This document shows, piece after piece, positions 33,223 through 55,219 of a stretch of DNA of 64,000 bases. This DNA comes from Streptomyces sp. NL15-2K (lineage in GTDB: Bacteria; Actinomycetota; Actinomycetes; Streptomycetales; Streptomycetaceae). The number at the start of each line of letters is the position of its first letter. Positions within the stretch are counted from its first letter, which is position 1. Where the stretch lies: assembly GCF_030551255.1 (NCBI RefSeq), contig NZ_CP130630.1, forward strand, positions 9,299,001 through 9,363,000. Reading direction: 5' to 3'. A program made the position numbers and the translations under genes. The notes under the pieces were generated by a model, which was not told where the DNA came from, did not search any database, and was given only the letters and a program-made list of their open reading frames with translations.

Positions 33223-33225
33223 GCC

Positions 33226-36239: not shown

Positions 36240-37046
36240 ATGATGGGATCCCGGGCAGTGCCCACGAACGGACTCTCTCCCGTGTACGACGAGACCGGTG
36301 CCGCGTCCGCGCGTTTCCTCAGGTGGCTGACCGAGGAGACCGACGGCGCCGCCGGGAACCGGGTGCCCAGCGCCGCCTACGCACCCCACGAGCGGTGCAG
36401 CCTGGAACTGGTCGAGGACGTCGTGGCACGCCTGGCCGCCCTCGGCTGGATAGCCGTGCACAACGACTCCGGCGCCGTGCCACCCCTGGTCAGCCCCACC
36501 GGCACCGGCCTCGCGGAGGTGCGCGCCTGGGACGAGGCGTACGACGACCGGGACACCCGGCGCCGGTACGCCAAGGCGGCCCTGTTCGCCTGGTGGGACC
36601 GGGCCGGGCGGCACCACAGCGGCGAACCGAACCCCGAGGACTTCCTCTGGGCCCGGGAGGCCTTCTACTGCGGCCGCCGACTCGCCCTCGAGGACCTGGA
36701 GTACGCCAAGGACCATCTGGAGCTGCCCACCCCGGTCCACGTCGGCGTCACCGAACAGGGCGCCGGAGTGTTCCTGTCCTTCGAGCAGCTGGCCCTGCTT
36801 GTGCAGGCGTCCCGCCCCGACCTGTCAGAGGCCGACAGCGAGGTACGGCAGGTGCGCGAGCTCGCCGGCGCCCTGACCGAGGCCGCCCAGCGCGGTGCCG
36901 AACCCGACGAGGGCACGCTGCAGCGCTTCCTGAAGCACAGCGGCGACCTGGTGCAGGCCGGTTCCAGATCGGTGGGCTCGATGAGCAGGGACATGGCGTC
37001 CGGCATCGTGTCGGAGGTCATCAACTCGATGCTGAGGCTGGGATGA
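36240..37046 (+). CDS. Unknown protein with two winged-helix-like segments (system gene 1)
   Basis: A 268-residue soluble protein, not assigned to a known family. Two winged-helix-like stretches are visible: LVEDVVARLAALGWIAVHND followed by VSPTGTGLAEV (about 60-100), and a second around LPTPVHVGVTEQGAGVFLS (about 158-178). A helical C-terminal region with SRSVGSMSRDMASGIVSEVI follows. Its stop overlaps the NTPase start by 4 bp. It diverges from the sigma gene across 171 bp that contain TTGACA at 36179. It may be an adaptor or effector for the NTPase; function unknown. Confidence 0.6.
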   Translation: MMGSRAVPTNGLSPVYDETGAASARFLRWLTEETDGAAGNRVPSAAYAPHERCSLELVEDVVARLAALGWIAVHNDSGAVPPLVSPTGTGLAEVRAWDEAYDDRDTRRRYAKAALFAWWDRAGRHHSGEPNPEDFLWAREAFYCGRRLALEDLEYAKDHLELPTPVHVGVTEQGAGVFLSFEQLALLVQASRPDLSEADSEVRQVRELAGALTEAAQRGAEPDEGTLQRFLKHSGDLVQAGSRSVGSMSRDMASGIVSEVINSMLRLG

Positions 37047-40954: not shown

Positions 40955-41476
40955 TCACCCTGGACCGGCGTGGAGCCGGCCAGGACGCGCTGTCGGGGCT
41001 GCGGAGTGCTCGGCAGGGCTCGGCTCCGGCCGGTGCGTGCCGGGCGGGAAACTCTGCTTGAAGGTGAACGCGTACGGCGCCGGGCCATGCGCCCGCAGAT
41101 GCCTGACCCGTTCCTCGGCCTCGGCCGTGGTCGGGCGGTGGCCGGCCGGGACCCACCACAGCGCGTACGCGGCCTCGGTCATGTGCTGGAACCATTCCCG
41201 TCGCCTGCGCACGAATTCACGGTGCCGGCCGGAATAGGTGAAGTTCTCCAGTTCTTCCATCGACGCCCATACCGATATGTTCACGGTAGTGCCCGCGCTG
41301 TCGCCCGCGTCCCACTCGAATCCAGGATCGTCGTCGGTCTGCCGCCAGACGAAACCCGGTGCCGCCTCTGACAGGGCGAACAGGGGCTCCAAGTTGTCGA
41401 TGAACTCCTTCATCTGCGGATCGTCTGCCGGTGCCGCCATCCTGCCGACATTCACGTGCGCGATTTCGAAGGCCAT
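40955..41476 (-). CDS. DUF3291 (ABM-fold) protein of the hydrazine locus
   Basis: A 173-residue protein from ATG 41476 with a strong purine-rich ribosome site. Residues 1-145 match DUF3291: FEIAHVNVGRMAAPADDP, FVWRQTDDDPGFEWDAG, NISVWASMEELENFTYSGRH, and MTEAAYALWWVPAGHRPTTA. DUF3291 proteins have a ferredoxin-like ABM fold seen in small monooxygenases and dehydratase-like tailoring proteins. It is downstream of the MGMT-like gene and has its own copy of the cluster palindrome 80 bp upstream, so it belongs to the same regulon. Its catalytic role is unknown. Confidence 0.75.
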   Translation of the reverse strand: MAFEIAHVNVGRMAAPADDPQMKEFIDNLEPLFALSEAAPGFVWRQTDDDPGFEWDAGDSAGTTVNISVWASMEELENFTYSGRHREFVRRRREWFQHMTEAAYALWWVPAGHRPTTAEAEERVRHLRAHGPAPYAFTFKQSFPPGTHRPEPSPAEHSAAPTARPGRLHAGPG

Positions 41477-41554
41477 TCCTTCCACTCCTTCAGCGAGCTT
41501 TTCCTTGCCATTGACCGTTGTTATTGATTCTTGCAGGGTGGCGGCCGGATCATG

Positions 41555-41572
41555 CTGGCAACAAATTGCCAG
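41555..41572. promoter_or_regulatory. Cluster operator copy A (TGGCAA-N4-TTGCCA)
   Basis: CTGGCAA-CAAA-TTGCCAG is a perfect 7-bp inverted repeat, in the 117-bp gap between the MGMT-like and DUF3291 genes. Flanks (ATG before, TTG after) also match copy B at 46574-46589. It is the likely site of a cluster-specific regulator. Confidence 0.65.
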
Positions 41573-41593
41573 TTGTGTTCAACCGCTCCTTCA

Positions 41594-42085
41594 TCAGAAA
41601 AGTGCCGTTCCCTGTTCGAAATCCAGCAGCCGCCGTTTGTTTTCCAGGCCGCCGCCGTATCCGGTGAGGCTGCCGTTCGCGCCGATGACGCGGTGGCAGG
41701 GCACGATGATGCTGATGGGGTTCCGGCCGCCTGCGAGGCCGACCGCACGGGACGCCTTGGGATTGCCCAGGGCGTCGGCCACTTGGCCGTATGAGCGGGT
41801 CTCGCCGTAGGGGATCCTCCGCAGTTGTTCCCAGACGCCGCGCTGGAAGGGCGTGCCGTCGAGCCGCAGCGCGAGGGTGAACTCCTTCAACTCGCCCGCG
41901 AAATAGGCCGCCAGCTGTTCCAGGGCCTCGCCGAAGGGTGCGTCGTCGCGGGCGCCGAAGCTCTCCTCCGGCGGACTGTGGCGCCGCACGCTCAGGTGGA
42001 GGCCGCACAGGACGCCTTCGGCGGCGACGAGGGTGAGAGGACCGTACGGGCTGTCGACGACGGTGTGGCACCGCACTGAATTCAC
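41594..42085 (-). CDS. ogt: O6-alkylguanine-DNA alkyltransferase (MGMT/Ogt-like)
   Basis: A 163-residue protein from GTG 42085. The active-site motif IVPCHRVIG gives nucleophile Cys130. Asn122 (GGRNPISI), the Tyr/Arg finger region (GETRSYGQVADALGNPKASR) and GYGGGLENKRRLLDFE complete the family pattern. It removes alkyl groups from O6 of guanine by suicidal transfer to Cys. It lies 19 bp after the NAGS-like gene in the hydrazine-type operon. That suggests protection against an alkylating, hydrazine- or diazo-derived product made by the cluster, although it could be a passenger repair gene. Confidence 0.88.
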   Translation of the reverse strand: MNSVRCHTVVDSPYGPLTLVAAEGVLCGLHLSVRRHSPPEESFGARDDAPFGEALEQLAAYFAGELKEFTLALRLDGTPFQRGVWEQLRRIPYGETRSYGQVADALGNPKASRAVGLAGGRNPISIIVPCHRVIGANGSLTGYGGGLENKRRLLDFEQGTALF

Positions 42086-42104
42086 TGAACGTCCTTGCGT
42101 GGGG

Positions 42105-42482
42105 TCAGGCCGACGGCCCGTGCTCCGGGATCTCCTCTATGTACGACACCCCGCGGGACGCGCCGGTACCGAAGCGCTCCCAGTCCTCACGGAGCCGGAT
42201 GCGCCCGTCGGGGAGGATCTCCGGGGTGCTGACGCAGCGGCCGGACACGACCGTGTCGTCTGCCAGGACCTGGCAGTAGACCAGGTCCAGGCAGCCGTCG
42301 CCGACCTGCCGGCCGACCAGGTAGCCCCGTACCACGGCGCCGCCGGAGAACTCCGCCCAGACGGTGTCGCGCTCCTGGTGGTAGCGACCCACCGGGGCGC
42401 CGGTGGCGGTGGCCGTTTCGGCCGCGGCGGACCGGAACGACCTGCCGTCGTAGTCGATCGTCCCGGTGACCTCCGCCGTCAT
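42105..42482 (-). CDS. Small NAGS-like conserved protein
   Basis: A 125-residue protein, mostly predicted beta: TIDYDGRSFRSAAAETATAT, RYHQERDTVWAEFSGGAVVR, DLVYCQVLADDTVVSGRC, STPEILPDGRIRLREDWERF. It matches the small family often labelled n-acetylglutamate synthase, a label without good support; a lipocalin-like barrel is more likely. The ATG overlaps the lysine-hydroxylase stop (ATGA). Its role in the pathway is unknown, perhaps ligand binding. Confidence 0.7.
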   Translation of the reverse strand: MTAEVTGTIDYDGRSFRSAAAETATATGAPVGRYHQERDTVWAEFSGGAVVRGYLVGRQVGDGCLDLVYCQVLADDTVVSGRCVSTPEILPDGRIRLREDWERFGTGASRGVSYIEEIPEHGPSA

Positions 42483-43849
42483 GTGGCCATCTGCCAGCGG
42501 GTGCTGACGAGGGTGTCGCGGATGGTGAAGATCTCGCTCTCGAACAGCGAGTTGATGATGGTGGCACTGCGCACCGACAGCAGGGTCAGGTTGGCGTCCG
42601 GGATGCCGTGCGTGTAACGGGACCGGTTGAGCGCGAAGATCCGGTGGCCGTCCGGGCCCTTCCAGCGCACCGAGTAGTCGCTGTCCACCATCATCTCCCC
42701 GGCGTCGTCCAGCTCGATCCGCTCGCGCAACTCGGGGTCCAGCGGCGGCTCGACCGCGCGACGGCCGGTGGCCAGCACGGCGTGCGCGACGCGGTGCTCC
42801 TCACGCCCCACGGGCGAGACGGTGTGCAGGGTGAGCAGGTCGCCGTCGGACTCGGCCGAGACCGCGTCGCGATCCGGGTAGAGCGTCACCGGGTAGTCGC
42901 CGTGCCGCAACATCCCGTCGTAGTTGGCCTGGGAGATCGCGCGGAGCGTGCCCGGGGTGATGGCGTCCCCGGTGAGGACGTGGCCGTCCACCAACTGACG
43001 GCGCGTCTCGCTGGGCACGTCCTGCAGGAACTGGACGTACGCCGGGCGGTAGAAGTCGTTGGCCGGCGGCGAGTCGTCCATCGGCTGGAACCAGGGCCGG
43101 CGGCCGAACCAGGAGATACGGGTGAAACCGCGGCCCAGCAGTTCCAGCACACTCTCCGCGCCGGTCTGCCCGCCCCCCACCACCGCGATCGGGTCCGCCG
43201 GGTCCAGCAGGGACACGCGGGCGGTCAGCTCCTCGGGGAAGAAGGCCCGCTCGCCCAGCACGCCGGCCAGGCCGGGGGGCGCGGACGGTTTGCTGCCGAG
43301 TCCCAGCACCAGGTGGTCACTGGTGGCCACCAGCTTCCCGTCGGCGTGGTAGGCGAAGCCGTGGTCGAAGGTGATCCGGTCGATGTCGGTGTCGTAGCGG
43401 ACGCAGTCGAGCCGCTCGGACGCCCAGCGCAGGTACCGCGCGTACTCCTGGCGCGGGATGGTGTCGAACTGGGCGTTGAGCAGGGCCCAGGCCCGCCCGG
43501 TGGAGACCATGTAGTTGAGGAACGACAGTCGGTGGCACGGATCGGCGAACGAGACCAGGTCCTTCAGCCACGAGGTCTGCATGCGAACGCCGCTGAGCAG
43601 CAGGTCCGGATGCCAGGCGAAGCCGGGTCGTCGCTCCAGGAGGGCTATCCGGTGCGGTGCGACGGATTCGAAGAGCGCGGCCAGGCTCAGATTGGCCGGG
43701 CCCGCTCCGACACCCACGGTGTGGTAGTGGCGCATGGCAGGGTCCTCCAACGGTTGTTGTCCGGTGGGTTCGCGTTCGGTGGGCTCATGTCCGGCTGGGT
43801 CATGTGCGGGGGGCTCGTGTTCGGGCGGGATGTCCGGACGAGGCGTCAT
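42479..43849 (-). CDS. L-lysine N6-hydroxylase (IucD/K_oxygenase family)
   Basis: A 456-residue flavin-dependent N-monooxygenase. The FAD motif GVGAGPANLSLAALFE follows a 38-residue low-complexity leader (EHEPPAHDPAGHEPTERE). Other hallmarks are FAWHPDLLLSGVRMQTSWLK, LVSFADPCHRLSFLNYMV, the NADPH motif VVGGGQTGAESVLELLGRGF and the C-terminal RYTHGIPDANLTLLSVRSAT. The start at 43849 was chosen because it overlaps the oxidoreductase stop by 4 bp; the family domain begins at Met39. The enzyme converts lysine to N6-hydroxylysine. It is here linked to the MetRS-like and cupin genes and not to siderophore synthetase genes, which points to hydrazine formation. Confidence 0.88.
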   Translation of the reverse strand: MTPRPDIPPEHEPPAHDPAGHEPTEREPTGQQPLEDPAMRHYHTVGVGAGPANLSLAALFESVAPHRIALLERRPGFAWHPDLLLSGVRMQTSWLKDLVSFADPCHRLSFLNYMVSTGRAWALLNAQFDTIPRQEYARYLRWASERLDCVRYDTDIDRITFDHGFAYHADGKLVATSDHLVLGLGSKPSAPPGLAGVLGERAFFPEELTARVSLLDPADPIAVVGGGQTGAESVLELLGRGFTRISWFGRRPWFQPMDDSPPANDFYRPAYVQFLQDVPSETRRQLVDGHVLTGDAITPGTLRAISQANYDGMLRHGDYPVTLYPDRDAVSAESDGDLLTLHTVSPVGREEHRVAHAVLATGRRAVEPPLDPELRERIELDDAGEMMVDSDYSVRWKGPDGHRIFALNRSRYTHGIPDANLTLLSVRSATIINSLFESEIFTIRDTLVSTRWQMAT

Positions 43850-44880
43850 ACGGGGACCGCGGACCGGTGCAGCAGGCGGTCGGCGGCCTGCCTGGCGGCC
43901 GCGAGCGCGGTCTTGGCGGCGCCGCCGCTTCCGCCGGTGAAGGTGAACAGGCTGGTGCCGGCCGGAACCGCGGGGCGAAGCCGCAGGCCCGGCGAGGCCG
44001 TGTAGCAGTCGGCCGCGACCACGATGTGGCGCAGCCCTGCGATGCCCAGTTCGGGCAGGACACGGGCGGCCAGGTCCGAGGTGCGCCGCAGGAGTGCCGG
44101 GACCGGCCTGAGGCGCGTGGGATCGACGTCGTAGGCGTCGCTGGGGACGCCGAGGAGGACCCCGTTGCCGGGCCCGGGGCGCCCGTACAGGCCGGTGACC
44201 TCGTCCACGAACGGGGCGGGGAGCGTGCCGGTCGCGTCGTACACGCCGTACTGGATGAGCTTCGTCCGGTACCCGTCGCCCGGCAGCAGTGCCGGGGTCC
44301 ACGGACCGGTGGCCAGGACGCCGCTGTCGTAACGGCGCCTTTCGCCGCCCACCAGCCAGCTCACCGTCGCGCCGGGCTCGGCGCGGACGGCGCCGACCGT
44401 GCCGTGGACGAGATCACCTCCGATCCGGACGAAGTCGGCCAGTACCTCGTCACGCAGCCGCCGCGGCGAGATGAAGCCCGCGTGCCGTTCCACGACGCCG
44501 TGCCGGGCGGCCAGGTACGGGGCTTCCCCGGGCGCACAGGCCCGCGCGGACCCGGGCAACAGGCGCTGAAGGCGTTCGACAGCCGCGGGATCGGCCGGAT
44601 CGGCCCGCAGATAGACCGACCCCGTCTCCTGGTAGCCGCTCCAGGCCCGCAACAGGCGGCTGGCGCGCAGCTCGGCCAGGCTGGAGGCCGCCAGGTCGAG
44701 TTGGCGCGGGTCCGGTTCGTATCCTCGGACCAGTCCTCCGGACACACCGGTCGCGCCGTGCTCGGGCGAGGCGGTGTCCACGAGTTCCACCCGCAGCCTC
44801 CGGTCGGCGAGCTTGAGCCGCCAGGCGAGCAGCGTGCCGGCGATGCCCGCCCCGGCCACTCCCACGCGTGGCCCGCTCAT
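43846..44880 (-). CDS. FAD-dependent amine/amino-acid oxidoreductase (DAO family)
   Basis: A 344-residue protein. The dinucleotide-binding motif VGVAGAGIAGTLLAWRL is at the N-terminus, with ELVDTASPEHGATGVSGGLVRG after it, and the C-terminal FAD motif TSLFTFTGGSGGAAKTALAA. The D-amino-acid/glycine-oxidase fold fits the enzyme (Spb39 type) that oxidatively cleaves the N6-(carboxymethylamino)lysine adduct, releasing hydrazinoacetic acid and aminoadipate semialdehyde. ATG 44880 overlaps the MetRS-like stop; the stop overlaps the hydroxylase start. The assignment rests on fold plus context. Confidence 0.8.
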   Translation of the reverse strand: MSGPRVGVAGAGIAGTLLAWRLKLADRRLRVELVDTASPEHGATGVSGGLVRGYEPDPRQLDLAASSLAELRASRLLRAWSGYQETGSVYLRADPADPAAVERLQRLLPGSARACAPGEAPYLAARHGVVERHAGFISPRRLRDEVLADFVRIGGDLVHGTVGAVRAEPGATVSWLVGGERRRYDSGVLATGPWTPALLPGDGYRTKLIQYGVYDATGTLPAPFVDEVTGLYGRPGPGNGVLLGVPSDAYDVDPTRLRPVPALLRRTSDLAARVLPELGIAGLRHIVVAADCYTASPGLRLRPAVPAGTSLFTFTGGSGGAAKTALAAARQAADRLLHRSAVPV

Positions 44881-46169
44881 GACTCGCCGGTGATGAGTGG
44901 AAGCAGCGCGTTCGGCGCATCCCCGAGGCACCGCACGGCCAGGGCCGGATCGAAGTCGGGCAGCCGCAGCGCGGCCTGCGCCCGTACGAGGTCGTGGTCG
45001 CCCCGCGGCGGATCGTCATGGAAGGCCCGGAAAGCGTCGAGCGTGAAGTCGCTCCCGTAGCGGTCGGGCCGGTCGCGGCACAGGAACAGCCGCACCAGGC
45101 CGGGATCCTCCGTCGCGAGCAGGTCGTTGGCCCAGATGGCGTGGTTGCGGCTGGTGGAGAACTTCTGCCCGTCCAGCCGGTAGAACTGGTTGACCACCAG
45201 CCCGCCGAGCGTCCCGGCCGGCACTCCGGCGGCGGCGAACAGGGCCGGGAACACGACCGCGTAGTAGAAGGTGTTGTCAACGCCCAGGAAGTGCCACAGC
45301 TCGCCCACCTGCCGCCATGCGCCGACGCAGTCCGCCAGGGAGTGGACGGTCGGGTCGACGGCGCGGGCGACGGCGTAGAGATAGCCCAGCCCCATTTCGA
45401 TCCACACGTCGGCGCGCGGCCCGGGCAGGACGCCGAGTTCGATGCCCCAGTCAGTGGGGTAGGCGGCCTGGACGTCGGGGAGCCCGGCGTCGAGGTAGTG
45501 GCGGATGAGCGCCATGGCGGGGTCCGGCACGTGGGCGCGCGCCCATGCCTCCAGCAGCGGTGCGCGGTACGACTCCAGCCGCAGCACGGGCAGTTCCGCC
45601 CGCCGCTCGGCGGGCGGGGCGCCATGGCAGGCCGAGCGCGCGTCGACCATGGTGTCCGCGGTGGCGAAGCACGCGCACCCCTCGCAGGTTCCGCCGCCCA
45701 TCCCCGCGCCGCACCCGGGGCAGGCGCCGGTCACGTACGCGTGGTGGAGTGTGCGCCCGCAGTCGGCGCAGACCTGGTAGGCGGTCTCCTCCAGGACGAA
45801 CGCTCCGGCGGCCATCAGCTCGGCCATGAGCCGGTCCACCGCCTTGCGGTAGTCGGCGTCCTCGGTGGGGTCCACCAGCAGGTCGTAGTCGATGCGGGCC
45901 TGCCGGAACGCCGTCCTGATGTCGGAGCCGTAGTCGCGCACCACCGCCGGTACCGGACGCTCCTCGGCGTCCGCCTTCGCCACCACGTAGTTCTGGTGGC
46001 TGTCCAGCCCGGTCATGGTGAGCACCCGCTCGCCGCGGTGGCGGGCGGCCCGGGCCGCGACGTCCGCGGCGAGGTAGGGGCCGCTCAGGTGGCCGATGTG
46101 CAGGGGGCCGTTGGGTGTCGGCGGCGGGGTGGTGAGCACGGTGAGCGTGCCTGTGTCTGCGCTCTTCAT
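44877..46169 (-). CDS. MetRS-like N-N ligase (stand-alone)
   Basis: A 430-residue class I aminoacyl-tRNA-synthetase-like protein. HIGH is at residues 24-27, and the KMSKS equivalent reads KFSTS at 336-340. Zinc-type cysteines are at 134/137, 150/153 and 162/165/167. It lacks the C-terminal anticodon-binding domain of true MetRS (usually over 500 residues), so it is unlikely to charge tRNA. In known hydrazine pathways such a domain, fused to a cupin, activates N6-hydroxylysine as an ester with an amino acid such as glycine, which then rearranges to an N-N bond. Here it overlaps a separate cupin gene by 4 bp. Confidence 0.88.
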   Translation of the reverse strand: MKSADTGTLTVLTTPPPTPNGPLHIGHLSGPYLAADVAARAARHRGERVLTMTGLDSHQNYVVAKADAEERPVPAVVRDYGSDIRTAFRQARIDYDLLVDPTEDADYRKAVDRLMAELMAAGAFVLEETAYQVCADCGRTLHHAYVTGACPGCGAGMGGGTCEGCACFATADTMVDARSACHGAPPAERRAELPVLRLESYRAPLLEAWARAHVPDPAMALIRHYLDAGLPDVQAAYPTDWGIELGVLPGPRADVWIEMGLGYLYAVARAVDPTVHSLADCVGAWRQVGELWHFLGVDNTFYYAVVFPALFAAAGVPAGTLGGLVVNQFYRLDGQKFSTSRNHAIWANDLLATEDPGLVRLFLCRDRPDRYGSDFTLDAFRAFHDDPPRGDHDLVRAQAALRLPDFDPALAVRCLGDAPNALLPLITGES

Positions 46170-46537
46170 GGCCGCGGCTCCGTCCCTGCGGTCCGCGGGA
46201 GCCAGTACACGCTCAGCAGCACCAGCGGCTCGGTGGCCGACCGGTTGTGCACGACGTGCGCCTCGTTGCTGCTCAGCAGCATCGCCGTCCCCTGCGCGGC
46301 CTCGGTCCGGCCCGTCGCCGGTGCGTCGTCCGGAGTCTCGAAGTCGGCGGCGCCGTCCACGACCACGGCCAGCTCCACTTCGTCATGGCAGTCGCGCAGG
46401 CTGCTGCCGCCGGGCGGGATGACGCACCACATGGCGTTGAAAGGCAACTGCTCGTTGATGGCGTACTGGGTCCATCTGCCGATCTGAATTTGACTTTCCG
46501 CAGTGAGCCGGGCGGTTGTTGCATTGAGCTTTTCCAT
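46166..46537 (-). CDS. Stand-alone cupin of the hydrazine-forming set
   Basis: A 123-residue single-domain cupin. The first motif region is CHDEVELAVVVDG, with His51 and Glu55 as probable metal ligands. The second is LLSSNEAHVVHNRS, with His94 and His97. ATG 46537 is the only start that gives a compact cupin. Its stop overlaps the MetRS-like start, matching the cupin plus MetRS composition of the fused enzyme Spb40. The cupin is thought to catalyse the rearrangement that makes the N-N bond. First gene of a seven-gene operon, preceded by the cluster operator. Confidence 0.82.
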   Translation of the reverse strand: MEKLNATTARLTAESQIQIGRWTQYAINEQLPFNAMWCVIPPGGSSLRDCHDEVELAVVVDGAADFETPDDAPATGRTEAAQGTAMLLSSNEAHVVHNRSATEPLVLLSVYWLPRTAGTEPRP

Positions 46538-46573
46538 ACCGCCGATTGTTCCCGGGTGAAATCCAGAAAATGC

Positions 46574-46589
46574 TGGCAAGAACTTGCCA
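46574..46589. promoter_or_regulatory. Cluster operator copy B (TGGCAA-N4-TTGCCA)
   Basis: TGGCAA-GAAC-TTGCCA is a perfect 6-bp inverted repeat, 37 bp upstream of the cupin ATG and 90 bp upstream of the divergent permease. Including flanks it shares ATGCTGGCAA, AA in the spacer, TTGCCA and TTG with copy A. Confidence 0.65.
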
Positions 46590-46679
46590 CTTGAACGCAT
46601 TGACCGGTCCGTGCGGTGATCTTAACGTCGAGCCGTTATAGCAGCGCGAAATGCGGTCGGAATTTGTTGGGAGTGTGTG

Positions 46680-47966
46680 GTGAGTGTGGATTCGGCTTCC
46701 CCAACGCAGTTGCGCAAGGTGCTGGGCACCCGCGACCTCATCGTCTACTACGTGTCCACACTGGTCGGCTCGGGCATCCTCGTGGTGCCGGGCATCGCCC
46801 TGGAGCTGGCGGGACCGGCCTCGCTGCTGGCCTGGCTGATCCTGGCCGTCGTCGCGTTCCCGATCGCGGCGGCCTTCGCCCGCTTCTCCGCCGAGTACCC
46901 CAGCGCCGCCGGGACCAGCTACCTGATCAAACGCGCGTTCGGTGACCGCCTGGGTGCGGCCTCCGGTCTGTTCCTGCTGTTGCTCAACCTGGTGGTCAAC
47001 CCGGTCCTGGGGCTGGCCGCCGCCCGCTATTTCGCGGCGCTGATGGGCTGGCACGGCCACACGGTGATCCTGCTGGTCGGATTCGCGGCCATGAGCCTGG
47101 GCGTGGTGGCGAACATGCTGGGCCTCCGCATCGCCTCGCAGGTGCAGTTGGTGCTGGTCTTCAGCCTGATAGCCGGGCTGGTCGCCGTCATCGTGGTGTC
47201 CGCTCCGGCGGCTCGGCCCGAGCGGCTGACCCCGTTCGCCCCGTACGGCTGGAGCGCGGTGGGCACGGCGATCCTGGTGTGCTTCTTCTCGTTCTTCGGC
47301 TGGGAGCACGTCTCGCACGTCGCCGACGAGGTCCGTGACCCGCGGCGCAGCTTTCCGCGCGCCGCACTGATCGTCGCCGGGATCATCGGCGCGCTCTACT
47401 GCACGCTCGCGTTGGTCATCGCGCTGGTGGTGCCGTCGCGGACCGACACCGACACCACGGCCGTGCTGGACGTGCTGCTGCGCTTCAGCCACGGTGACGA
47501 CGCCGCCCGGCTCGGCTCGGCGCTGGCCGTCTTCCTGATCGTGGTCAACATCAACGCCTGGGTCCTCGGCGCGTCCCGGCTGCTGTACGCGATGGCCCGC
47601 GACGGTGCTGTGCCCCGTCGTCTGTCGGCGGTCTCGCGTCGCACCGGCACGCCGATGGCCGCGCTCTGGGCGGTCTGGGTGTGCTACGCGCTCGACATCG
47701 GCGGCATGTACGTCCTGGGTGGCGACGAGCACGACCTGATCCCGTTCGCCAGCGCCTCGACGCTGGTGGTGTACCTGCTGACCTTTGCCGCAGGCCTGCG
47801 GCTGTTCGCGGACCGGGCCATGCGGGCGGTGTGCACCGCGGCGTTGATGGCGAGCGCCGCGTTCCTGCTCGGCGGCGGTCTGCCGTCGCTGCTGGCCGTA
47901 CTGGCCTTCGCGGCCGTGGCCGGCTACGTCCTGCTGCGCCGCCCTGCCGCAGCGGCCGGGCCGTGA
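46680..47966 (+). CDS. APC-superfamily amino-acid permease
   Basis: A 428-residue protein with about 12 hydrophobic segments. The start fits the APC family (LGTRDLIVYYVSTLVGSGIL, with the unwound GSG motif in helix 1). FFSFFGWEHVSHVADEVRDP and NINAWVLGASRLLYAMARDG are typical of amino-acid transporters. GTG 46680 has GGGAG 7 nt upstream. It is divergent from the hydrazine operon and shares its control region. It may import lysine or glycine-type precursors or export the product. Confidence 0.85.
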   Translation: MSVDSASPTQLRKVLGTRDLIVYYVSTLVGSGILVVPGIALELAGPASLLAWLILAVVAFPIAAAFARFSAEYPSAAGTSYLIKRAFGDRLGAASGLFLLLLNLVVNPVLGLAAARYFAALMGWHGHTVILLVGFAAMSLGVVANMLGLRIASQVQLVLVFSLIAGLVAVIVVSAPAARPERLTPFAPYGWSAVGTAILVCFFSFFGWEHVSHVADEVRDPRRSFPRAALIVAGIIGALYCTLALVIALVVPSRTDTDTTAVLDVLLRFSHGDDAARLGSALAVFLIVVNINAWVLGASRLLYAMARDGAVPRRLSAVSRRTGTPMAALWAVWVCYALDIGGMYVLGGDEHDLIPFASASTLVVYLLTFAAGLRLFADRAMRAVCTAALMASAAFLLGGGLPSLLAVLAFAAVAGYVLLRRPAAAAGP

Positions 47967-48010: not shown

Positions 48011-48048
48011 ATACCGACGAGCCCCGTCTCATACCGACGAGCCCCGTC
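48011..48048. repeat. 20-bp-period direct repeat at the LuxR 3' end
   Basis: The 18-bp unit ATACCGACGAGCCCCGTC occurs at 48011-48028 and 48031-48048. The second copy encodes the last residues (RGSSV and stop) of the LuxR protein; the first lies just past the stop. Small tandem duplication of unknown effect. Confidence 0.7.
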
Positions 48049-48709
48049 CCTGCACGCCGTCGACGTCATCCGGCACCGGCGGAATGCCGAGCAGTCCGTA
48101 CCGGGCCGCCAGCACACCTGCTTGGAACCGGCCGACCGCCCCGACCTGGGACATCACATCGGCGATGTGGCGGCGGCAGGTGCGCAGGGACAGCCCGAGA
48201 CTGCGCGCCACCTGTTCGTCCTTGGCGCCCTCGCTGAGCAGTCGGAGGATCGCGGGTTTGGGGTCGGCCTTCGCCGGCCGTGCGGGGTCGGGGTGGCGCG
48301 TGGTGACGGCGGGGAGCGCCCACCCTCCCTCCCACAGCTGCTCGAAGACCCGGGTGAAGTGGTCCACGATGCTCTGCTCGCTGATCAGGGTGACACGGGT
48401 GGGGCCGTGTCCCAGCAGCACCAGCCGGCGGTCGACGACGGCGAACTCGCCGGGCAGTCGCTCGACGGTGCGCAGTCGGGCGCCCTGCTCGGTCACCGTA
48501 CGGGCGTAGTCGCGCGCCGCGGGAGGGGTACGGACGGTGTGGTGGTGGAGCGCCCGGACCTGGACGCCGCGCCGCAGCAGGTCGGTGACGGGGTGTACCG
48601 CCCCCGCGATCGGTTCGGGAGTGGGCTGTGCCACCAGCAACTCCTTGGCGCACCCGGTCAGGGTGTCGTGCACCGGCCCCTCGGCTTTCGCGCCGACGAG
48701 AATTTCCAT
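48029..48709 (-). CDS. LuxR-family regulator with TrmB/PLD-like N-terminus
   Basis: A 226-residue protein. The N-terminal part (PIAGAVHPVTDLLRRGVQVR, VRTPPAARDYARTVTEQGAR, DRRLVLLGHG) resembles the PLD-like ligand domain of many Streptomyces helix-turn-helix proteins. The C-terminal LuxR HTH is LSEGAKDEQVARSLGLSLRT, CRRHIADVMSQVGAVGRFQA. It lies between the permease and two LAL regulators and is a candidate binder of the TGGCAA-N4-TTGCCA sites. The start ATG 48709 is clear but has a weak ribosome site. Confidence 0.82.
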   Translation of the reverse strand: MEILVGAKAEGPVHDTLTGCAKELLVAQPTPEPIAGAVHPVTDLLRRGVQVRALHHHTVRTPPAARDYARTVTEQGARLRTVERLPGEFAVVDRRLVLLGHGPTRVTLISEQSIVDHFTRVFEQLWEGGWALPAVTTRHPDPARPAKADPKPAILRLLSEGAKDEQVARSLGLSLRTCRRHIADVMSQVGAVGRFQAGVLAARYGLLGIPPVPDDVDGVQGRGSSV

Positions 48710-48906: not shown

Positions 48907-51771
48907 TTAAGACCGTGGTCGGCTTCGGCCCAGTGGTTCGGTGGTGCCTGGCCCACGGTCGGACCCGGCCGGCGGCAGGACATCGACGAGCTCGTCCCGG
49001 CGGTGTATCCCGAGCTTGCGGTAGCAGTTCGTGAGGTGCTTCTCGACCGCTCGCCGGCTCACCCCGAGCAACCGCGCGATGTCATGGTTGGTGTCCCCCG
49101 CGGCCGCCAGCCGCGCCACCCGGAGTTCCGTCCTCGTCAGTGACGGGCGCCCCGGCTGCCTGCTCGCGGCCTCGGTGGCGCTCGCCTGAGCGCGCTCGGC
49201 CAGTCGCGGGTCACCGCAGTCGAGCGCGAGCCGGTGACTTCGGCGGAGATGCGCGACCGCCTCCGGGTGACCTTGCTCGCGCAGTGAGATCCCCAGCCGC
49301 AGCAACGACCTGGCCAGCTCAAGCGCGTTGACAGAGCCCTCCAGGATGTCGACCGACTCCCGCAGTACGACGATGCCCGCCTCGCCCCCGATGACGTCGC
49401 CCAGTATCCGTTTGGCCCGCCCGAGGGCGGCCGGCGCCCCCCATTCGGCCGCCAGTCGGCCATCCTCCTCGGCGACCTCACGGGCCGCGTCGAGGTCGCC
49501 GAGGCGCCGGTACAGGTCCGCGGTCAGCGCACGCCACGGGAACAGCACAGGGTTGTTCCAGCTCGCTCGGCTCAACTGCCGCCCACACTCCTGGTACTGC
49601 TCCAGGGCCACCCGGAGATCGCCCTCGGCCGTGGCCAGGGTGCCCCGCATCAGGTGCAGCACCGAGGCCAGGCACGCGTTCGTGGTTTCGGTGCCACAGC
49701 CGGTCAGCACGTTCCTGGTCAGCTCGACGTCCCGTACCCCGCTCGCCACGGCGGCCATCGCGATCGCGGTGGTGGGGTTCGCGGTGTCCCATTCGAGTGC
49801 GCCGAGTTCGAACGCGTCCGTGGCGGCGCGCTTCGCGTCCGCGATGCGGCCCGTATGCAGGGCGACCACTGCCTGTTCCGTCCGGATCACCGCCTGCTCG
49901 ACGACCGCCCCGCGCCTGCCGGCATGGGCGAGTGACGTGTCCAACCAGGGTGTGAGGCGCCCGGTCGATTCGGCGGCTGCCAGCACGGTCACCAGCAGGG
50001 GCAGCGCGGTGTGCGCGTGTGAGGACGAGGCGGGCTCCCGCTCGACGATTCGCTCCGCGACACGGGCCACCCAGGAGGACGGCCGGCGGCTGGTGAGAGT
50101 GACGGCGAACAGCAGCGTGGTCACCAGCTCGCGCTCCGCGAGCGTATCCACCGGCGGATCACCGCCGAGCTCGGCCAGCCGCGTGCTGTCGTCGGCCAGT
50201 TCGAGCGGATCAGTGCAGTCGAGGTGCCGCATCCGGGCCTCGATCCGCAGCTTGAGTTCTCGATCCGCTCCGGACAACTCGCCCATGTCGCCCAACTCGT
50301 CGAATACCTGGCGGGTCGGCGTGCGTACCCCGGGTGGGGCGCTGCCCAGCAGGGCCGGCGCCAGCCTCACCATCGCGGCCGCGCGATCCTGCGCGGAACT
50401 CAGCAGGGGAAGCGCATGGTTGATGTGTCGTACCGAGGCACGCACGTCGAAGGCCCGCTCGACTGTCCCGAGCTCGACCAGCAGCCGTGCCCGGTCCTCC
50501 CCGTTCGTCGAGGTGTCGAGCAATGCGCGGCGCAGATAGCGCGAGGCGGCTTCAGGAGCGCCGCGTCGCAGCGCCCTACCGGCCGCAGCGCGCAGCACGT
50601 CAGCCGTCCACTGCCCCTGCGGTGAGGTCACCGCCAGCAGCTGGGCCGCCCTCTGCTCGACGGAATGTTCACCTCCGTACAGCGACTTCGCCGCCCGGAT
50701 GTGAAGCTTCTCGCGTTCCTCGGCCGTCATCGACTCCTCGACCGCGTCCTGGACCACGAGGTGGACGAAACCAGGTCGCTGCCTGTCGGCCAACAGGCCC
50801 AACATGTGCAGGACATCCATCGCCTCCGCGCAGCCGACGGCGTCCAGTCCGGCGATCTGCCCGATGACCTCCGGATCGGCCTGGTCGCCCACGATCGCCA
50901 TGGCCTTGGCCACGTCGCGTACCGGCTCCGTCTGTGCGCCGATGCAGTCGATCAGGCGGTCACGAAGCTCCGCGGGCCTCAGCGACCGGACCTTGTCGGC
51001 GTGCTCGGCCCTCGGGGCAATGCCGTTGACCGACAAGTTGAGCAGGACCGAGGTGAGGAACAACGGATTTCCGTTCGTCGTCTCGTGGCAGGCGAGGGCG
51101 AACTCCTCGTGCCCGGCCTCACCCCACTGGTCGGCCACGAGGGCACGGGTCCCCGCGAGCGAGAACGGACGCGGCCGCAGCACCCGGGCGGCTGCTTTGG
51201 TGATGGCCTGCACCGTCGGCCTGTTCGACGTCGGCTCACCGTCCCGAACCGTGACCACGACCAGGATCCGGAGCCGGTTCAGCCGATTCGCCAGGCGAGC
51301 GAGCCATTGCAGCGAGGGCTCGTCGGCCCAGTGGAAACCGTCGACCAGGATCATCAAGGTCTGTGCGGCGCTCAGCCGTTCAACGAGCTTCAGCAGCCCG
51401 AGGAGCACCGCCTGCCGCACCGAGACCGGGCGCGTGCACGCGACATCGAACAGATCCTGGCCGAGGACCATTTCGGCGAGCCCCGCCGCACCGGACAGCC
51501 AACGTTCCCGCGTCTTGTCGTCCGCCGCGAACAAGGCGGGTTCCAGGAGTTGGCGCATCACGCCGAAGGCGTAGTCCTGCTCCAGTGCTGAGGCACCCGC
51601 ACTGAGCACCCAGGTGCCTTGCCGAGCGGCCAACCCGGGCAGGGCGCGCAGCAGCTCCGATTTGCCGATGCCCAGCGGGCCACTGATCACGAGAAGCGAC
51701 CCGCTGCCTCGGTGAGCGGACCGAAGCGCCTCGGAGACCGCACTCAGCTCGCCGTCTCGCTCGAGCAACAC
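48907..51771 (-). CDS. LuxR-LAL regulator 1 (pathway-type)
   Basis: A 954-residue LAL regulator from GTG 51771 (VLLERDGELSAVSEALRSAH). The P-loop GPLGIGKSE is near residues 32-40, then ALEQDYAFGVMRQLLEPALF and LMILVDGFHWADEPSLQWLA (Walker B region), as in pathway-specific LAL activators of natural-product clusters. The C-terminal HTH is LTRTELRVARLAAAGDTNHD, GVSRRAVEKHLTNCYRKLG. It probably activates the adjacent hydrazine-type cluster or the neighbouring LuxR gene. No TTA codon was noticed in it. Confidence 0.88.
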   Translation of the reverse strand: MLLERDGELSAVSEALRSAHRGSGSLLVISGPLGIGKSELLRALPGLAARQGTWVLSAGASALEQDYAFGVMRQLLEPALFAADDKTRERWLSGAAGLAEMVLGQDLFDVACTRPVSVRQAVLLGLLKLVERLSAAQTLMILVDGFHWADEPSLQWLARLANRLNRLRILVVVTVRDGEPTSNRPTVQAITKAAARVLRPRPFSLAGTRALVADQWGEAGHEEFALACHETTNGNPLFLTSVLLNLSVNGIAPRAEHADKVRSLRPAELRDRLIDCIGAQTEPVRDVAKAMAIVGDQADPEVIGQIAGLDAVGCAEAMDVLHMLGLLADRQRPGFVHLVVQDAVEESMTAEEREKLHIRAAKSLYGGEHSVEQRAAQLLAVTSPQGQWTADVLRAAAGRALRRGAPEAASRYLRRALLDTSTNGEDRARLLVELGTVERAFDVRASVRHINHALPLLSSAQDRAAAMVRLAPALLGSAPPGVRTPTRQVFDELGDMGELSGADRELKLRIEARMRHLDCTDPLELADDSTRLAELGGDPPVDTLAERELVTTLLFAVTLTSRRPSSWVARVAERIVEREPASSSHAHTALPLLVTVLAAAESTGRLTPWLDTSLAHAGRRGAVVEQAVIRTEQAVVALHTGRIADAKRAATDAFELGALEWDTANPTTAIAMAAVASGVRDVELTRNVLTGCGTETTNACLASVLHLMRGTLATAEGDLRVALEQYQECGRQLSRASWNNPVLFPWRALTADLYRRLGDLDAAREVAEEDGRLAAEWGAPAALGRAKRILGDVIGGEAGIVVLRESVDILEGSVNALELARSLLRLGISLREQGHPEAVAHLRRSHRLALDCGDPRLAERAQASATEAASRQPGRPSLTRTELRVARLAAAGDTNHDIARLLGVSRRAVEKHLTNCYRKLGIHRRDELVDVLPPAGSDRGPGTTEPLGRSRPRS

Positions 51772-52001
51772 CGCCTCACAACCTCCTGCGCTCGTTGGGC
51801 GCCGCCGATTTCCCGTGACCTGATCCGCCGGACAGGCCCAAGTCCCACCGAGGGGGAGGCAGGCGTCCGCCGGCCCGCTTGCCGTACGTGCGCGACGACA
51901 TGGCACGGCTCACCGGCGAACAGTCGGACCAACCCCTCGGCCGACACGATGTCCTCCGCCCGGGGCCGGACACGGCACCGAGGGGCAGCCTGGCCCCCGG
52001 A

Positions 52002-54953
52002 TCAGTCGCGCTCACCGCATACCCCGTCCCGCATGCGGATCCCACGGGAGCCCATCGCAACGGCCGTCGGCCCGATGGCTCGCTCGGCCGCGAAGGACTC
52101 GCTGAGCACTGTGGCGATCTCCGCGCGGGAGGACACCCCGAGCTTGCGGTACACGCTCGACAGATGGGTCTCGACGGTGCGCAGGGTGACGAACAGGGCC
52201 TTGGCGATGTCCCGGTTGGTCGCCCCGGCCATGGCGTGCTCGGCCACCCGCCGCTCGGCGGCGGTCAGGAGATCCGGCAACTCGCGGCTCAGCCCGCGCA
52301 TCCTGCCCCCCGCGGACAGCAGGAGCCTTTTGGCGATCGAGTGGGCGGACGGGCAGCCACACCGCACCGCCAGAATGACCGCACGGCGCAGGTACTTGCG
52401 CGCTCCCACGTCGTCGCCGACCCGCAACAGCCCGCGGCCCAGCAAGAGTTCCGCCTGGAGTTGGCTCAACCGTGCGGGCGATGCCCCCAGTCGCTCGACG
52501 GCCTCCGCCATGAGGTCCAGTCCGCGCCGCCCCGGCGTCGCCGCCCCCCGTGCCAGCAGACTGAGCCCGATGCTCTCCGGCGTTCCCCAGCGGATGCTCC
52601 ACTCTTCCTGCGCTTCGACCAGAGCGAGCGCTTCCGACCGGCGGTCCAAGTCGGTCAGAACGACCGCGGCCGGCACCCACCAGGGCGTCGGCACGGAGCC
52701 GGAGACACCGGCCTCCGCCCTGCTGCGGCCACACCTCAGCAGGGCCGACAGCCCGCCTTCGCCGTCGCCCAGCAGGAGCCTGGCATGGGCCCGCACCATG
52801 AGCACCTCGTGGTGTTCCCACGTGAAGTTCGGCTGATGTATCTCGTCGAGCAGCGCCTCGGCGCGCTCCGGCTCACCGCGGTTCACCAGCATGGCGGCAC
52901 ACACGATCCGGGGCAGGGCCCAGCGCCGGTCCTGGGCGACATCCATCGCGGCCCGGGCATCTGCCGCCGCTCTGGCCGGCCGCCCCATGCGCAGTGTCAC
53001 GGCTGACCTGGTCGCCAACGCATGGCAGTGCGTCGTGACCGCACCGACTCGCCGGGTGTCCTCCACCATCCGGTCCAGCGCGGCGAGGGCCTCCTCCGGC
53101 AGGCCCGCGTGGTCCAGGACCTGCGCCGCGAGGATCGCGGGTCCGTGAGAAACGGTGAGAGCGCCCGAGACCGCGGCCCTCGCACGGTCTGCCGCCTGCT
53201 CCGCGGATCCGCCGTCCAGCATGACGGTGCTCGCCAGCATGCCGACGGCCGCCCGGTCCGAGGGGGTGTCGCCGCTCGGAACCACCATCGTCCGAGCACG
53301 CCGCAGGGTCTGCCGCACATGCGGCTCGCTGAAGAGGCCGACGCCGAGAAACACGGCCTGAACCTGCCTGCGCAGGCTGTCGTCGGCGGCGGGCAGCTCC
53401 GCGGAGACCCCGTCGACCGCATCCAGGGCGTCGGACAGCAGGCGAAACGCCGAGGCGGCATGTCCTGCCTTGAGCGAGAGCACACCGTAGCGGGTCACCA
53501 GAGGAATGCGGGCCCGAAGATCGGGCGTCCGCTCGATGGCGCGCATGAGGTGGGCCATCGCCGCTTCCGGATCGACATCGCACAGTGCCCTGGCGAGCTC
53601 GATCAGGGCCTCGGTGTGGTCGGGTACCGCCTTCAGCAGGCGTTCGAGGAAGCGCACCTCGTCCGCGGGGCTGCCGCGCCGACGCGCGTCGGCGGCCGCA
53701 CCCCGCAGGGTGCTGGTCATCCACGGTTCCCGCAGCTCCGGCAGGTCGACGAGCAGGTGGGCGACCTCCTCCGGCGGGCGGCCCTCGTCGTGGAGCAGGA
53801 GCGCGCCACGTAACCGGAGCCCGGCGAGGTCGCCGGGTGGCAGTTCGCCGAGGACGGCGCCACGTGCCTGCTCGACCACGAACTCCAGCCGGTCCGCCAC
53901 CAGCAGGCCTTGTCCGCGCAGGACATCCACCGCCGCGGCCACCGCGCGCGCGGACAGCTTGAGCAGGGCGGCGATCATTCGGGGTTCGGTGGCGCCGAAC
54001 AGAGCGATGCCGACGGCCACCTTCCGGACGTTCTCCGGTAGCCGCTCCAAGCGCGCCGGCACTGCCCCGGACAGCACCCGCTCGCCGATCTCGGCAACGC
54101 GCCGGAGGTCCGGACGGTCCGGTCCCACGCCGTGATCGCGGAGCTCGGCGAGCAGCGACCGCAGCGAGAGCGGGCTGCCGCCGGACAACTCGGAGCAGAG
54201 CTCGACCAACGACGGCTCGGGCGAAGCCCCCAGTGCTGTGGCGACGAGATCGGTGATCTCGACACGGGAGAGCGGGCCCAGCTCGACCGTGGTGCCGGCG
54301 GCGTGCCCGGTGATGGTGGTCAGCAACTCCCGCCCCAGCCCGGTCGCGTCCGCGTCGTACGCCAGGACCACGAGCAGCGGATCGTCGAAAGTTCGGCGGA
54401 GCAGGAAGTCCACCCAGCGCAGGACGAGGGGATCGCAGTGGTGCGCGTCGTCGAGCATGATCGTCAATGGCCCGAGCGCCATCATGTGGGAGGCGAGCCG
54501 GTACAGTCCGCACAGGATGGGGTAACTGGCGTTCTCGCCGTCCTCGTCGAAGTCCGGCCCGCTGCCGGGCAGGAGCGCGGGCAGCGCCCATCGGGCCGCG
54601 CCCGCCAGCAGCGGCGAAGTGGCCGCCCCCGACGCCGTGAGCCCGAGCGGCTCGAACAGCTCACGCACCGTGGTGCCGGGAGATCCCGGTTCACGGCCGG
54701 TGGCGAACAGCACGGTGCCTTCGTGACGGTCGAACTCCGCGCGCGCTCGCATCAGCAGGCTGGTCTTCCCCATTCCGGCCGCACCGCTGACGAAAGCCGC
54801 GCCGGCGCCACCCCTGCGTGCCGCGGCGGCGGTATCCCGGAGCACGCTCAATGCAGGGGAACGCCTGAGTTGAGGCAGGTCATCACCCGAATCGCCCGCG
54901 CGGCTCATTGTTCGGGGCTGGTCGTGTTTCGAGACGATCTCGCTCATGATCAT
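52002..54953 (-). CDS. LuxR-LAL regulator 2, TTA-containing
   Basis: A 983-residue LAL regulator from ATG 54953 (an ATG at 54947 is an alternative). The P-loop is GAAGMGKTS near residue 52, with Walker B-like PLTIMLDDAHHCDPLVLRWV. A long helical region follows, then the HTH LTAAERRVAEHAMAGATNRD, FVTLRTVETHLSSVYRKLG. A leucine TTA codon (codon 381, 53811-53813) implies dependence on the bldA tRNA and so developmental timing. It is 230 bp upstream of LAL 1 on the same strand. Together with LAL 1 and the LuxR gene it forms a regulatory block at the right end of the cluster. Confidence 0.87.
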   Translation of the reverse strand: MIMSEIVSKHDQPRTMSRAGDSGDDLPQLRRSPALSVLRDTAAAARRGGAGAAFVSGAAGMGKTSLLMRARAEFDRHEGTVLFATGREPGSPGTTVRELFEPLGLTASGAATSPLLAGAARWALPALLPGSGPDFDEDGENASYPILCGLYRLASHMMALGPLTIMLDDAHHCDPLVLRWVDFLLRRTFDDPLLVVLAYDADATGLGRELLTTITGHAAGTTVELGPLSRVEITDLVATALGASPEPSLVELCSELSGGSPLSLRSLLAELRDHGVGPDRPDLRRVAEIGERVLSGAVPARLERLPENVRKVAVGIALFGATEPRMIAALLKLSARAVAAAVDVLRGQGLLVADRLEFVVEQARGAVLGELPPGDLAGLRLRGALLLHDEGRPPEEVAHLLVDLPELREPWMTSTLRGAAADARRRGSPADEVRFLERLLKAVPDHTEALIELARALCDVDPEAAMAHLMRAIERTPDLRARIPLVTRYGVLSLKAGHAASAFRLLSDALDAVDGVSAELPAADDSLRRQVQAVFLGVGLFSEPHVRQTLRRARTMVVPSGDTPSDRAAVGMLASTVMLDGGSAEQAADRARAAVSGALTVSHGPAILAAQVLDHAGLPEEALAALDRMVEDTRRVGAVTTHCHALATRSAVTLRMGRPARAAADARAAMDVAQDRRWALPRIVCAAMLVNRGEPERAEALLDEIHQPNFTWEHHEVLMVRAHARLLLGDGEGGLSALLRCGRSRAEAGVSGSVPTPWWVPAAVVLTDLDRRSEALALVEAQEEWSIRWGTPESIGLSLLARGAATPGRRGLDLMAEAVERLGASPARLSQLQAELLLGRGLLRVGDDVGARKYLRRAVILAVRCGCPSAHSIAKRLLLSAGGRMRGLSRELPDLLTAAERRVAEHAMAGATNRDIAKALFVTLRTVETHLSSVYRKLGVSSRAEIATVLSESFAAERAIGPTAVAMGSRGIRMRDGVCGERD
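53811..53813 (-). other. TTA leucine codon in LAL 2
   Basis: The codon is in frame (1,140 nt after the ATG at 54953) within the sequence LAGLRLRGALL. In Streptomyces TTA is rare, read only by the bldA tRNA, and typical of developmental or secondary-metabolite regulators. Confidence 0.85.
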
Positions 54954-55050
54954 GGGGAACCACCCGTTCGGTGACAGCCGCGCCTGCCCATGGCAGGCGG
55001 AGGGTGTCGAGAGGCGTGGTATCGGACCTGGGCGTGCGGGATCAGGGCAT

Positions 55051-55219
55051 CTAGTGCCGCGGCAGGCAACGTTTGCCCCGTCGCGACGCCCGGCACGCAC
55101 TCTCGCCGCACCGGGCACAGACCCAAGTACATCCAGTACGAGGGCCTGCGCCCGGCACGCCGAGAGCACGCACCGGACGCCGCTCCTTGACGGGCAAACG
55201 TTGCCTGCCGCGGCACTAG
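55051..55219. mobile_element. 169-bp MITE-like element with 28-bp inverted ends and CTAG borders
   Basis: Positions 55051-55078 and 55192-55219 are perfect reverse complements, each beginning at the outside with CTAG and continuing TGCCGCGGCAGGCAACGTTT. The interior (113 bp) has no gene. CTAG at both borders is consistent with a 4-bp target duplication of the IS5-type CTAG/YTAR class. It is probably a non-autonomous element. It lies upstream of LAL 2 in the gene-free stretch 54954-55975. Confidence 0.7.

Follow-up and report, generated by a model that had tools for sequence, protein, structure and literature searches.

Pairs of a stand-alone cupin and a stand-alone protein resembling methionyl-tRNA synthetase (MetRS) have already been described (PMC8664883; PMC11705231, Table 2), and split cupin/MetRS-like operons were predicted in 2010 (PMC2922099); the enzyme family itself is therefore not new. 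Pathways from lysine and glycine that proceed through hydrazines lead to N-nitroglycine and diazo compounds (PMC13274452, PMC13061610). Here we describe a seven-gene operon of this kind in a 64,000-nucleotide stretch (the window) of the 12.4 Mb genome of Streptomyces sp. NL15-2K, and conclude that it is a real, orphan and compact hydrazine pathway, in which a known kind of enzyme occurs in a new combination of genes.

From 46600 down to 40955, the operon encodes a cupin, a MetRS-like enzyme, a DAO-type oxidoreductase, a flavin N-hydroxylase, a 125-residue PF26421 protein, an O6-alkylguanine-DNA alkyltransferase (MGMT/Ogt) and a DUF3291 protein. Four-base ATGA overlaps, which read TCAT on the plus strand, join its first five genes at 46166-46169, 44877-44880, 43846-43849 and 42479-42482. 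These overlaps and the Pfam matches bear out the earlier note on this DNA, which had described a cupin, a MetRS-like protein without anticodon domain, a DAO and a lysine N6-hydroxylase in one overlapping operon. Also in agreement with it, the Pfam scan detects no genes for nonribosomal peptide synthetases, polyketide synthases or carrier proteins among the operon genes, and the additional MGMT, DUF3291 and APC permease genes have Pfam matches.

A proven counterpart of the cupin (46166..46600, minus strand; Cupin_2, 4.8e-08; start uncertain, with an alternative at 46537) is the N-N-forming cupin of Rhodococcus jostii RHS1, whose zinc ligands Asp63, His65, Glu69 and His103 are each required for activity (PMC8664883). 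The motif DCHDEVE (D-x-H-x3-E) of the window cupin has the type and spacing of Asp63/His65/Glu69, and a His further downstream fits His103. All four zinc-ligand positions are thus kept, which argues for a split hydrazine synthetase pathway. The two systems share a stand-alone Asp/His/Glu/His zinc cupin with a stand-alone MetRS-like partner; however, the RHS1 pathway uses glutamate, and its cluster includes a gene of the saccharopine-dehydrogenase-like kind (PMC8664883) that is missing from the window operon.

The MetRS-like adenylating enzyme (44877..46169, minus strand; 430 residues) is reduced to the catalytic core. Its match to tRNA-synt_1g (PF09334, 9.9e-54) spans residues 11-381, HIGH-type and KFSTS motifs are present, and the Pfam search gives no match to an anticodon-binding domain. 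The protein is 29% identical to the housekeeping MetRS of its own genome, which is the outgroup of the tree, and 45-93% identical to its clade A relatives described below; a grouping with housekeeping MetRS paralogues, raised earlier as a possible objection, is not seen. The zinc ligands, the MetRS motifs and the trees accordingly uphold the proposal of an N-N (hydrazine) forming pathway of the cupin/MetRS-like kind. The compact gene set very likely builds a small N-N-bonded molecule by this known enzyme type, and we hold with good confidence that a split cupin/MetRS-like hydrazine synthetase pathway best explains the locus as a whole. Among solved chains, PDB entries 9l8v, 9vq4, 9vqj and 9vr2, all named methionine-tRNA ligase, outscore all others against the window MetRS-like protein; they may be unlabelled parts of hydrazine synthetases, and no mention of these entry codes was found in the literature searched.

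Gene content, key residues, phylogeny, conservation and the absence of a GH3 gene can be read from the sequences; the chemistry, the substrates and the product we infer. The flavin enzyme would act on an L-amino acid, lysine being the most likely one, and hydroxylate its side-chain amine. The MetRS-like enzyme would activate a second, small amino acid as its adenylate (the candidates are Gly, Ala and Ser) and transfer it onto the N-hydroxyl oxygen. The zinc cupin would rearrange the unstable ester to form the N-N bond, and the DAO-type oxidase would cleave one C-N bond, so that the pathway would end at a monosubstituted hydrazine. PF26421 may be an accessory protein specific to the pathway; processing of the product may fall to DUF3291 and its transport to the APC permease. 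The product is likely to be a monosubstituted hydrazine or a derivative able to alkylate DNA, which would account for MGMT in the operon: this enzyme would repair guanine alkylated by the product or by its diazo or diazene oxidation product.

The locus was compared across a sample of 392 Streptomyces genomes, 93 of which have a MetRS-like match at E 1e-40 (below, L-numbers denote compared loci and G-numbers compared Streptomyces genomes). Among 114 MetRS-like matches in the genus, 106 were viewed with their flanks (the window, 5, then 100), and the 8 low-scoring ones were left out. L010 and L011, in which the codon-model gene caller returned no MetRS gene, were dropped (114 of 116 rows kept), and the tree does not include L007 and L008, in whose stretches the top-ranking MetRS was a different one. 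The tree set comprises 98 loci with a cupin or an N-hydroxylase, to which the MetRS-like tree adds L006, L009 and the housekeeping MetRS, L047. The MetRS-like, N-hydroxylase and DAO trees have 101, 96 and 89 tips, respectively, the latter two being built with FastTree and midpoint-rooted. Spb38-40, Tri26-28, Apy9-11, Afn8/9/18 and the characterised split pairs of PMC11705231 Table 2 lie outside the tree set.

In the MetRS-like tree, clade A (support 1.00) consists of the window, three orthologues, L005, L044, L045, L046 and two Kribbella loci, the last being the nearest relatives of the window group (0.97). Its members are 428-460 residues long, compared with 506-563 for stand-alone relatives outside the clade and 572 for the housekeeping outgroup, so that of all loci compared those of clade A have the shortest stand-alone MetRS-like proteins. 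A class-level search at E 1e-75 matched 2 of 394 genomes, one being the window's own and the other L166, which lies outside the tree set and encodes a MetRS-like protein, a DAO, PF26421, an N-hydroxylase and a cupin truncated by the end of the stretch. As a separate observation, Kribbella loci L006-L009 (~8.4-11.7 kb) carry a short MetRS-like gene followed by PF26421; no cupin, no N-hydroxylase and no convincing DAO were found in these ~21-kb stretches. In L006 and L009 a 440-residue protein without Pfam match adjoins, and two proteins in L166 appear similar by eye.

The four loci L005, L044, L045 and L046 of clade A seem to be albofungin-like, because L005, L044 and L045 have asparagine synthase matches (L046 by similarity) and L045 has a TENA match and, by eye, polyketide-type genes. 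In the published albofungin cluster, genes for a cupin-like protein, a tRNA synthetase and an FAD oxidoreductase lie side by side, and an L-lysine 6-monooxygenase is encoded as well (PMC9469721); a review reports that a hydrazine transferase in this pathway uses a free hydrazine (PMC11705231). In this type (abf orfDEF with abf6; afn8/9/18), the cupin, MetRS-like and DAO genes stand in the same order as in the window, accompanied by a Lys/Orn-type hydroxylase; the hydroxylase is found in L005 and L045, whereas the stretches fetched for L044 and L046 show none. All four loci share PF26421 and a short MetRS-like protein with the window.

The DAO-type oxidoreductase (43846..44880, minus strand; PF01266, 5.7e-27) likewise groups with L005, L044, L045 and L046, together with L128, L133 and L137 (1.00; the inner order is weakly supported). 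One alternative is that the window cassette is of the albofungin type and supplies free hydrazine, or a donor of it, to be transferred to a different scaffold, since its hydroxylase, DAO and MetRS-like protein all group with loci that share the cupin-MetRS-DAO order and an asparagine-synthetase-like gene. That gene is present in all four loci, which were chosen by it, and a BBE-type second oxidase directly precedes PF26421 in 4 of 4. In the fetched stretches of the four own-type clusters, however, no asparagine-synthetase-like gene lies within 10 kb of the MetRS-like gene and no BBE oxidase was found (for the window, bases 30001-60000). The window operon also lacks polyketide genes and instead has MGMT, DUF3291 and APC. 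An albofungin-type role in hydrazine transfer thus seems quite unlikely to us.

A second alternative is a plain cassette of the Spb38/39/40 type, in which N6-hydroxylysine and glycine would be joined and cleaved on the lysine side to give hydrazinoacetic acid. The three-enzyme logic of the Spb38/39/40, Tri26-28 and azaserine types (N-hydroxylase, cupin plus MetRS-like, DAO) is the same, the window hydroxylase has those of azaserine-type loci as neighbours in the tree and shares the Lys and Asn positions with them, and several published lysine/glycine pathways yield hydrazinoacetate (PMC11705231, PMC13274452). In the window, however, the cupin and MetRS-like proteins are separate, and the DAO and MetRS-like protein fall into clades other than the azaserine-type ones. 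The operon genes include no carrier-protein genes, nor the succinyl-transferase and adenylase partners by which hydrazinoacetate is handled in azs and dob (PMC10445470, PMC13061610). The specific Spb38/39/40 hydrazinoacetate assignment made at first is therefore not retained, as the cassette appears from its sequences to fall with the albofungin-like rather than the azaserine-type cassettes (Spb39 and Tri27 are not in the trees); we regard such a plain cassette as possible but doubtful.

The N-hydroxylase (42479..43849, minus strand; Lys_Orn_oxgnase, PF13434, 2.2e-68; start uncertain, with an alternative at 43735) keeps the Lys (SWLKDL) and Asn (DDSPPAND) of MbtG and KtzI. Both positions have substrate-binding roles in N-hydroxylases. 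Conservation of a third motif, ISQANYDGM, is too low for use. In the tree, the protein joins L005 and L045 (1.00) and then 24 fused-type loci (joint group 1.00); it thus adjoins azaserine-type hydroxylases, whose Lys and Asn positions it shares, although for most of the 24 fused loci the azaserine-type label follows from architecture and not from sequence comparison with named enzymes. The cupin-MetRS proteins of these loci are 587-780 residues long, and 13 of the 24, at 750 residues or more, have room for an additional carrier domain such as PMC10445470 describes. Residues and clade fit an L-amino acid substrate and azaserine-type loci, and are compatible with both Lys and Orn. Our best guess from the sequence is lysine, with ornithine also possible.

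We also considered a grouping of the hydroxylase with siderophore enzymes. The window protein sits among hydrazine-pathway hydroxylases. Its own genome has three N-hydroxylase paralogues, presumed to be siderophore enzymes. L060 and L061 form a separate group, which also contains the hydroxylase of one hydrazine-synthetase locus, L063; L062 falls inside a different hydrazine-pathway clade.

For the 125-residue protein (42105..42482, minus strand), the Pfam copy searched gives no match, and it does not include the PF26421 model; the family is assigned through precomputed protein-database entries (PF26421.1) for its relatives. Some relatives are named N-acetylglutamate synthase, and the earlier note had likewise called the protein NAGS-like. 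We reject this label in favour of PF26421, as nothing points to N-acetylglutamate synthase activity. No solved structure matches a profile built from 62 relatives of the protein (the best E is 0.64), and no naming paper for the family was found in the literature searched.

PF26421 matches at E 1e-6 occur in 209 of the 392 Streptomyces genomes, with ~75 bits for most among the matches listed. At least 116 of these 209 genomes have no MetRS-like partner, given that MetRS-like matches at E 1e-40 are limited to 93 of the 392, and the wider family is therefore not bound to the pathway. Among the best 24 of the 209 matches (at least 88 bits), 22 lie, by eye, within 14 kb of a MetRS-like match; the other two (G028, G130) are on different contigs of fragmented genomes that also have a MetRS-like match. 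Mapped onto the MetRS-like tree, PF26421 accompanies all 10 loci of clade A; a second clade, B (support 0.999), has 19 loci, and 15 of them show it within the fetched stretches. The four clade B exceptions are L161 and L162, with PF26421 ~13 kb away, and L121 and L135, which are the two fragmented genomes. None of the remaining 72 tips, housekeeping outgroup included, has a linked PF26421.

The two clades differ in their neighbours: asparagine-synthetase-like genes occur in clade A, and ATP-grasp ligase and arginine-deiminase/DDAH-like genes in clade B (L117 by Pfam; L114, L115 and L128 by eye). Since PF26421 tracks two clades with different neighbours, its role seems to be tied to the chemistry of the synthetase, and on this distribution we propose that it is a component of hydrazine synthetase systems that has apparently not been recognised so far. 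It is conceivable, if speculative, that PF26421 is a dedicated component of some hydrazine synthetase systems, e.g. a carrier or catalyst for the unstable O-acyl-hydroxylamine ester or the hydrazine, and that the seven-gene operon with MGMT makes a small, free, DNA-alkylating hydrazine or diazo compound without carrier proteins. Separately, the ATP-grasp ligase of L117 has an L-amino acid ligase C-terminal domain, and L114, L115, L117 and L128 each combine a split synthetase with PF26421.

Orthologous clusters were found in L003 (S. spongiae), L004/L043 (S. sporangiiformans) and L042 (G228), which share nine genes in the same order with the window at 69-93% identity. A MetRS-like match of at least 82% identity occurs in only 3 of the 392 genomes (that of the window, G228 and G239), and also in S. 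spongiae. The ratios of nonsynonymous to synonymous substitution rates (dN/dS) are 0.20-0.49 for pairs including the window, implying that the genes are kept by purifying selection.

In L003 and L004/L052 the operon is extended by a weakly thymidylate-kinase-like gene, a GH3 adenylase, an LCM methyltransferase, an FAD oxidase and a 367-residue protein, followed in L052 by DUF6182. L042 retains the kinase-like gene and then only the start of GH3 (16 codons; 26 residues, 92% identical, in a second search), so that GH3 was evidently lost there. GH3 has no match in the window genome, while the same search finds it in G239, and no convincing remnant of the module genes was seen within the window. 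L004 is the outgroup of the four clusters in all three trees, although the DAO tree supports this at no more than 0.24, which makes loss of the GH3 module in the window lineage, too, the simplest reading. Without GH3 the strain probably makes an unelaborated small hydrazine. This loss (a remnant in G228, absence in the window genome) might also suggest a decaying locus that yields no product any more; the core frames are all intact, however, the dN/dS values are as given above, and the regulator and permease are retained, and we judge decay very unlikely.

The MGMT gene (41594..42085, minus strand; PF01035, 8.1e-36) encodes an intact PCHR motif and is present in the window and the three orthologous clusters. 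It is a plausible candidate for a self-resistance gene. Among the papers listed by a search for such genes in self-resistance, most concern DNA glycosylases and, judged by titles and the starts of abstracts, none concerns MGMT. MGMT is also present in L114 and L117, and absent from their close relative L115 and, by gene table, from L116; this pattern is not used as support.

The DUF3291 gene (40955..41485, minus strand; PF11695, 8.4e-53), the last of the operon in the window genome, has orthologues in the three other own-type clusters, and the family adjoins many fused synthetases. In the L091 clade, taken as the actinopyridazinone type (Apy9-11) from the class-III aminotransferase in L091, DUF3291 lies beside the synthetase in 12 of 13 fused loci. 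This clade differs from the window in its fused cupin-MetRS and in an N-hydroxylase that has Arg for the Lys and lacks the Asn; L091 also has, by eye, adenylation-type genes. The idea of DUF3291 as a hydrazine-specific gene is weakened by how widespread the family is, with a match in 265 of the 392 Streptomyces genomes; only the local pattern remains (18 of 116 gene-called sources).

Several observations weigh against the pathway as proposed here. The highest-scoring solved structures for the N-hydroxylase are 6xbb, 5o8p and 7us3, the last being a putrescine enzyme; 5o8p is entered as an L-lysine 6-monooxygenase involved in desferrioxamine biosynthesis, and we take 6xbb and 5o8p to act on diamines. 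We nevertheless set a diamine substrate aside, as all three structures are without the Lys and Asn found in the window enzyme. The window DAO lies outside the clade of 23 DAOs from fused azaserine-type loci, so that the side of C-N cleavage is not fixed. The MetRS-like pocket (VWIEMGLGY, FYYAV) fully matches neither the azaserine type nor the DUF3291-bearing fused type, and Gly, Ala and Ser therefore all remain candidates for the second amino acid. MGMT is one of five PF01035 matches in the window genome; with another of them, encoded elsewhere, it shares 76% identity, and its presence in the operon could be incidental. Finally, GH3 alone of the module genes was searched for genome-wide, so that other tailoring genes may lie elsewhere.

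As to the surroundings, the APC-family amino acid permease (46677..47966, plus strand; AA_permease_2, PF13520, 5.1e-45) is divergent from the operon and 88-91% identical in the three orthologous clusters. A small LuxR-type helix-turn-helix regulator (48029..48709, minus strand; weak GerE match, 8.1e-06) is 69-80% identical there. Two large AAA/LuxR regulators on the minus strand (48907..51906 and 52002..55169; AAA_16 and GerE) are possible cluster members, kept beside the cluster in L003 and L042 and not found in L004. Directly downstream of the operon, three plus-strand genes with weak or no Pfam matches (36282-40944) mark the edge of the cluster, and MlaE-type permease and ABC ATPase genes form a single minus-strand run at 32419-34922. 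Elsewhere in the sample, 11 loci (L142, L144, L145, L147, L149, L151, L154, L155, L156, L159 and L160) have a MetRS-like protein whose KMSKS region is degenerate. Nearby, neither a cupin nor an N-hydroxylase nor a DAO was found, and 9 of the 11 have an asparagine-synthetase-like gene 2-4 kb away.

Hydrazine synthetases are sought as biocatalysts for N-N bond formation. Its uncharacterised partner protein and its DNA-repair gene make the present operon a hint of novelty in the making of such molecules and in tolerance to them, and PF26421, found in every clade A locus examined, offers a directly testable missing component. The natural loss of the tailoring module provides a built-in comparison between the core and the elaborated product. 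Retention of the MGMT gene in all four clusters, that of the window included, suggests that the product is small and genotoxic, and offers a handle for resistance-guided discovery.

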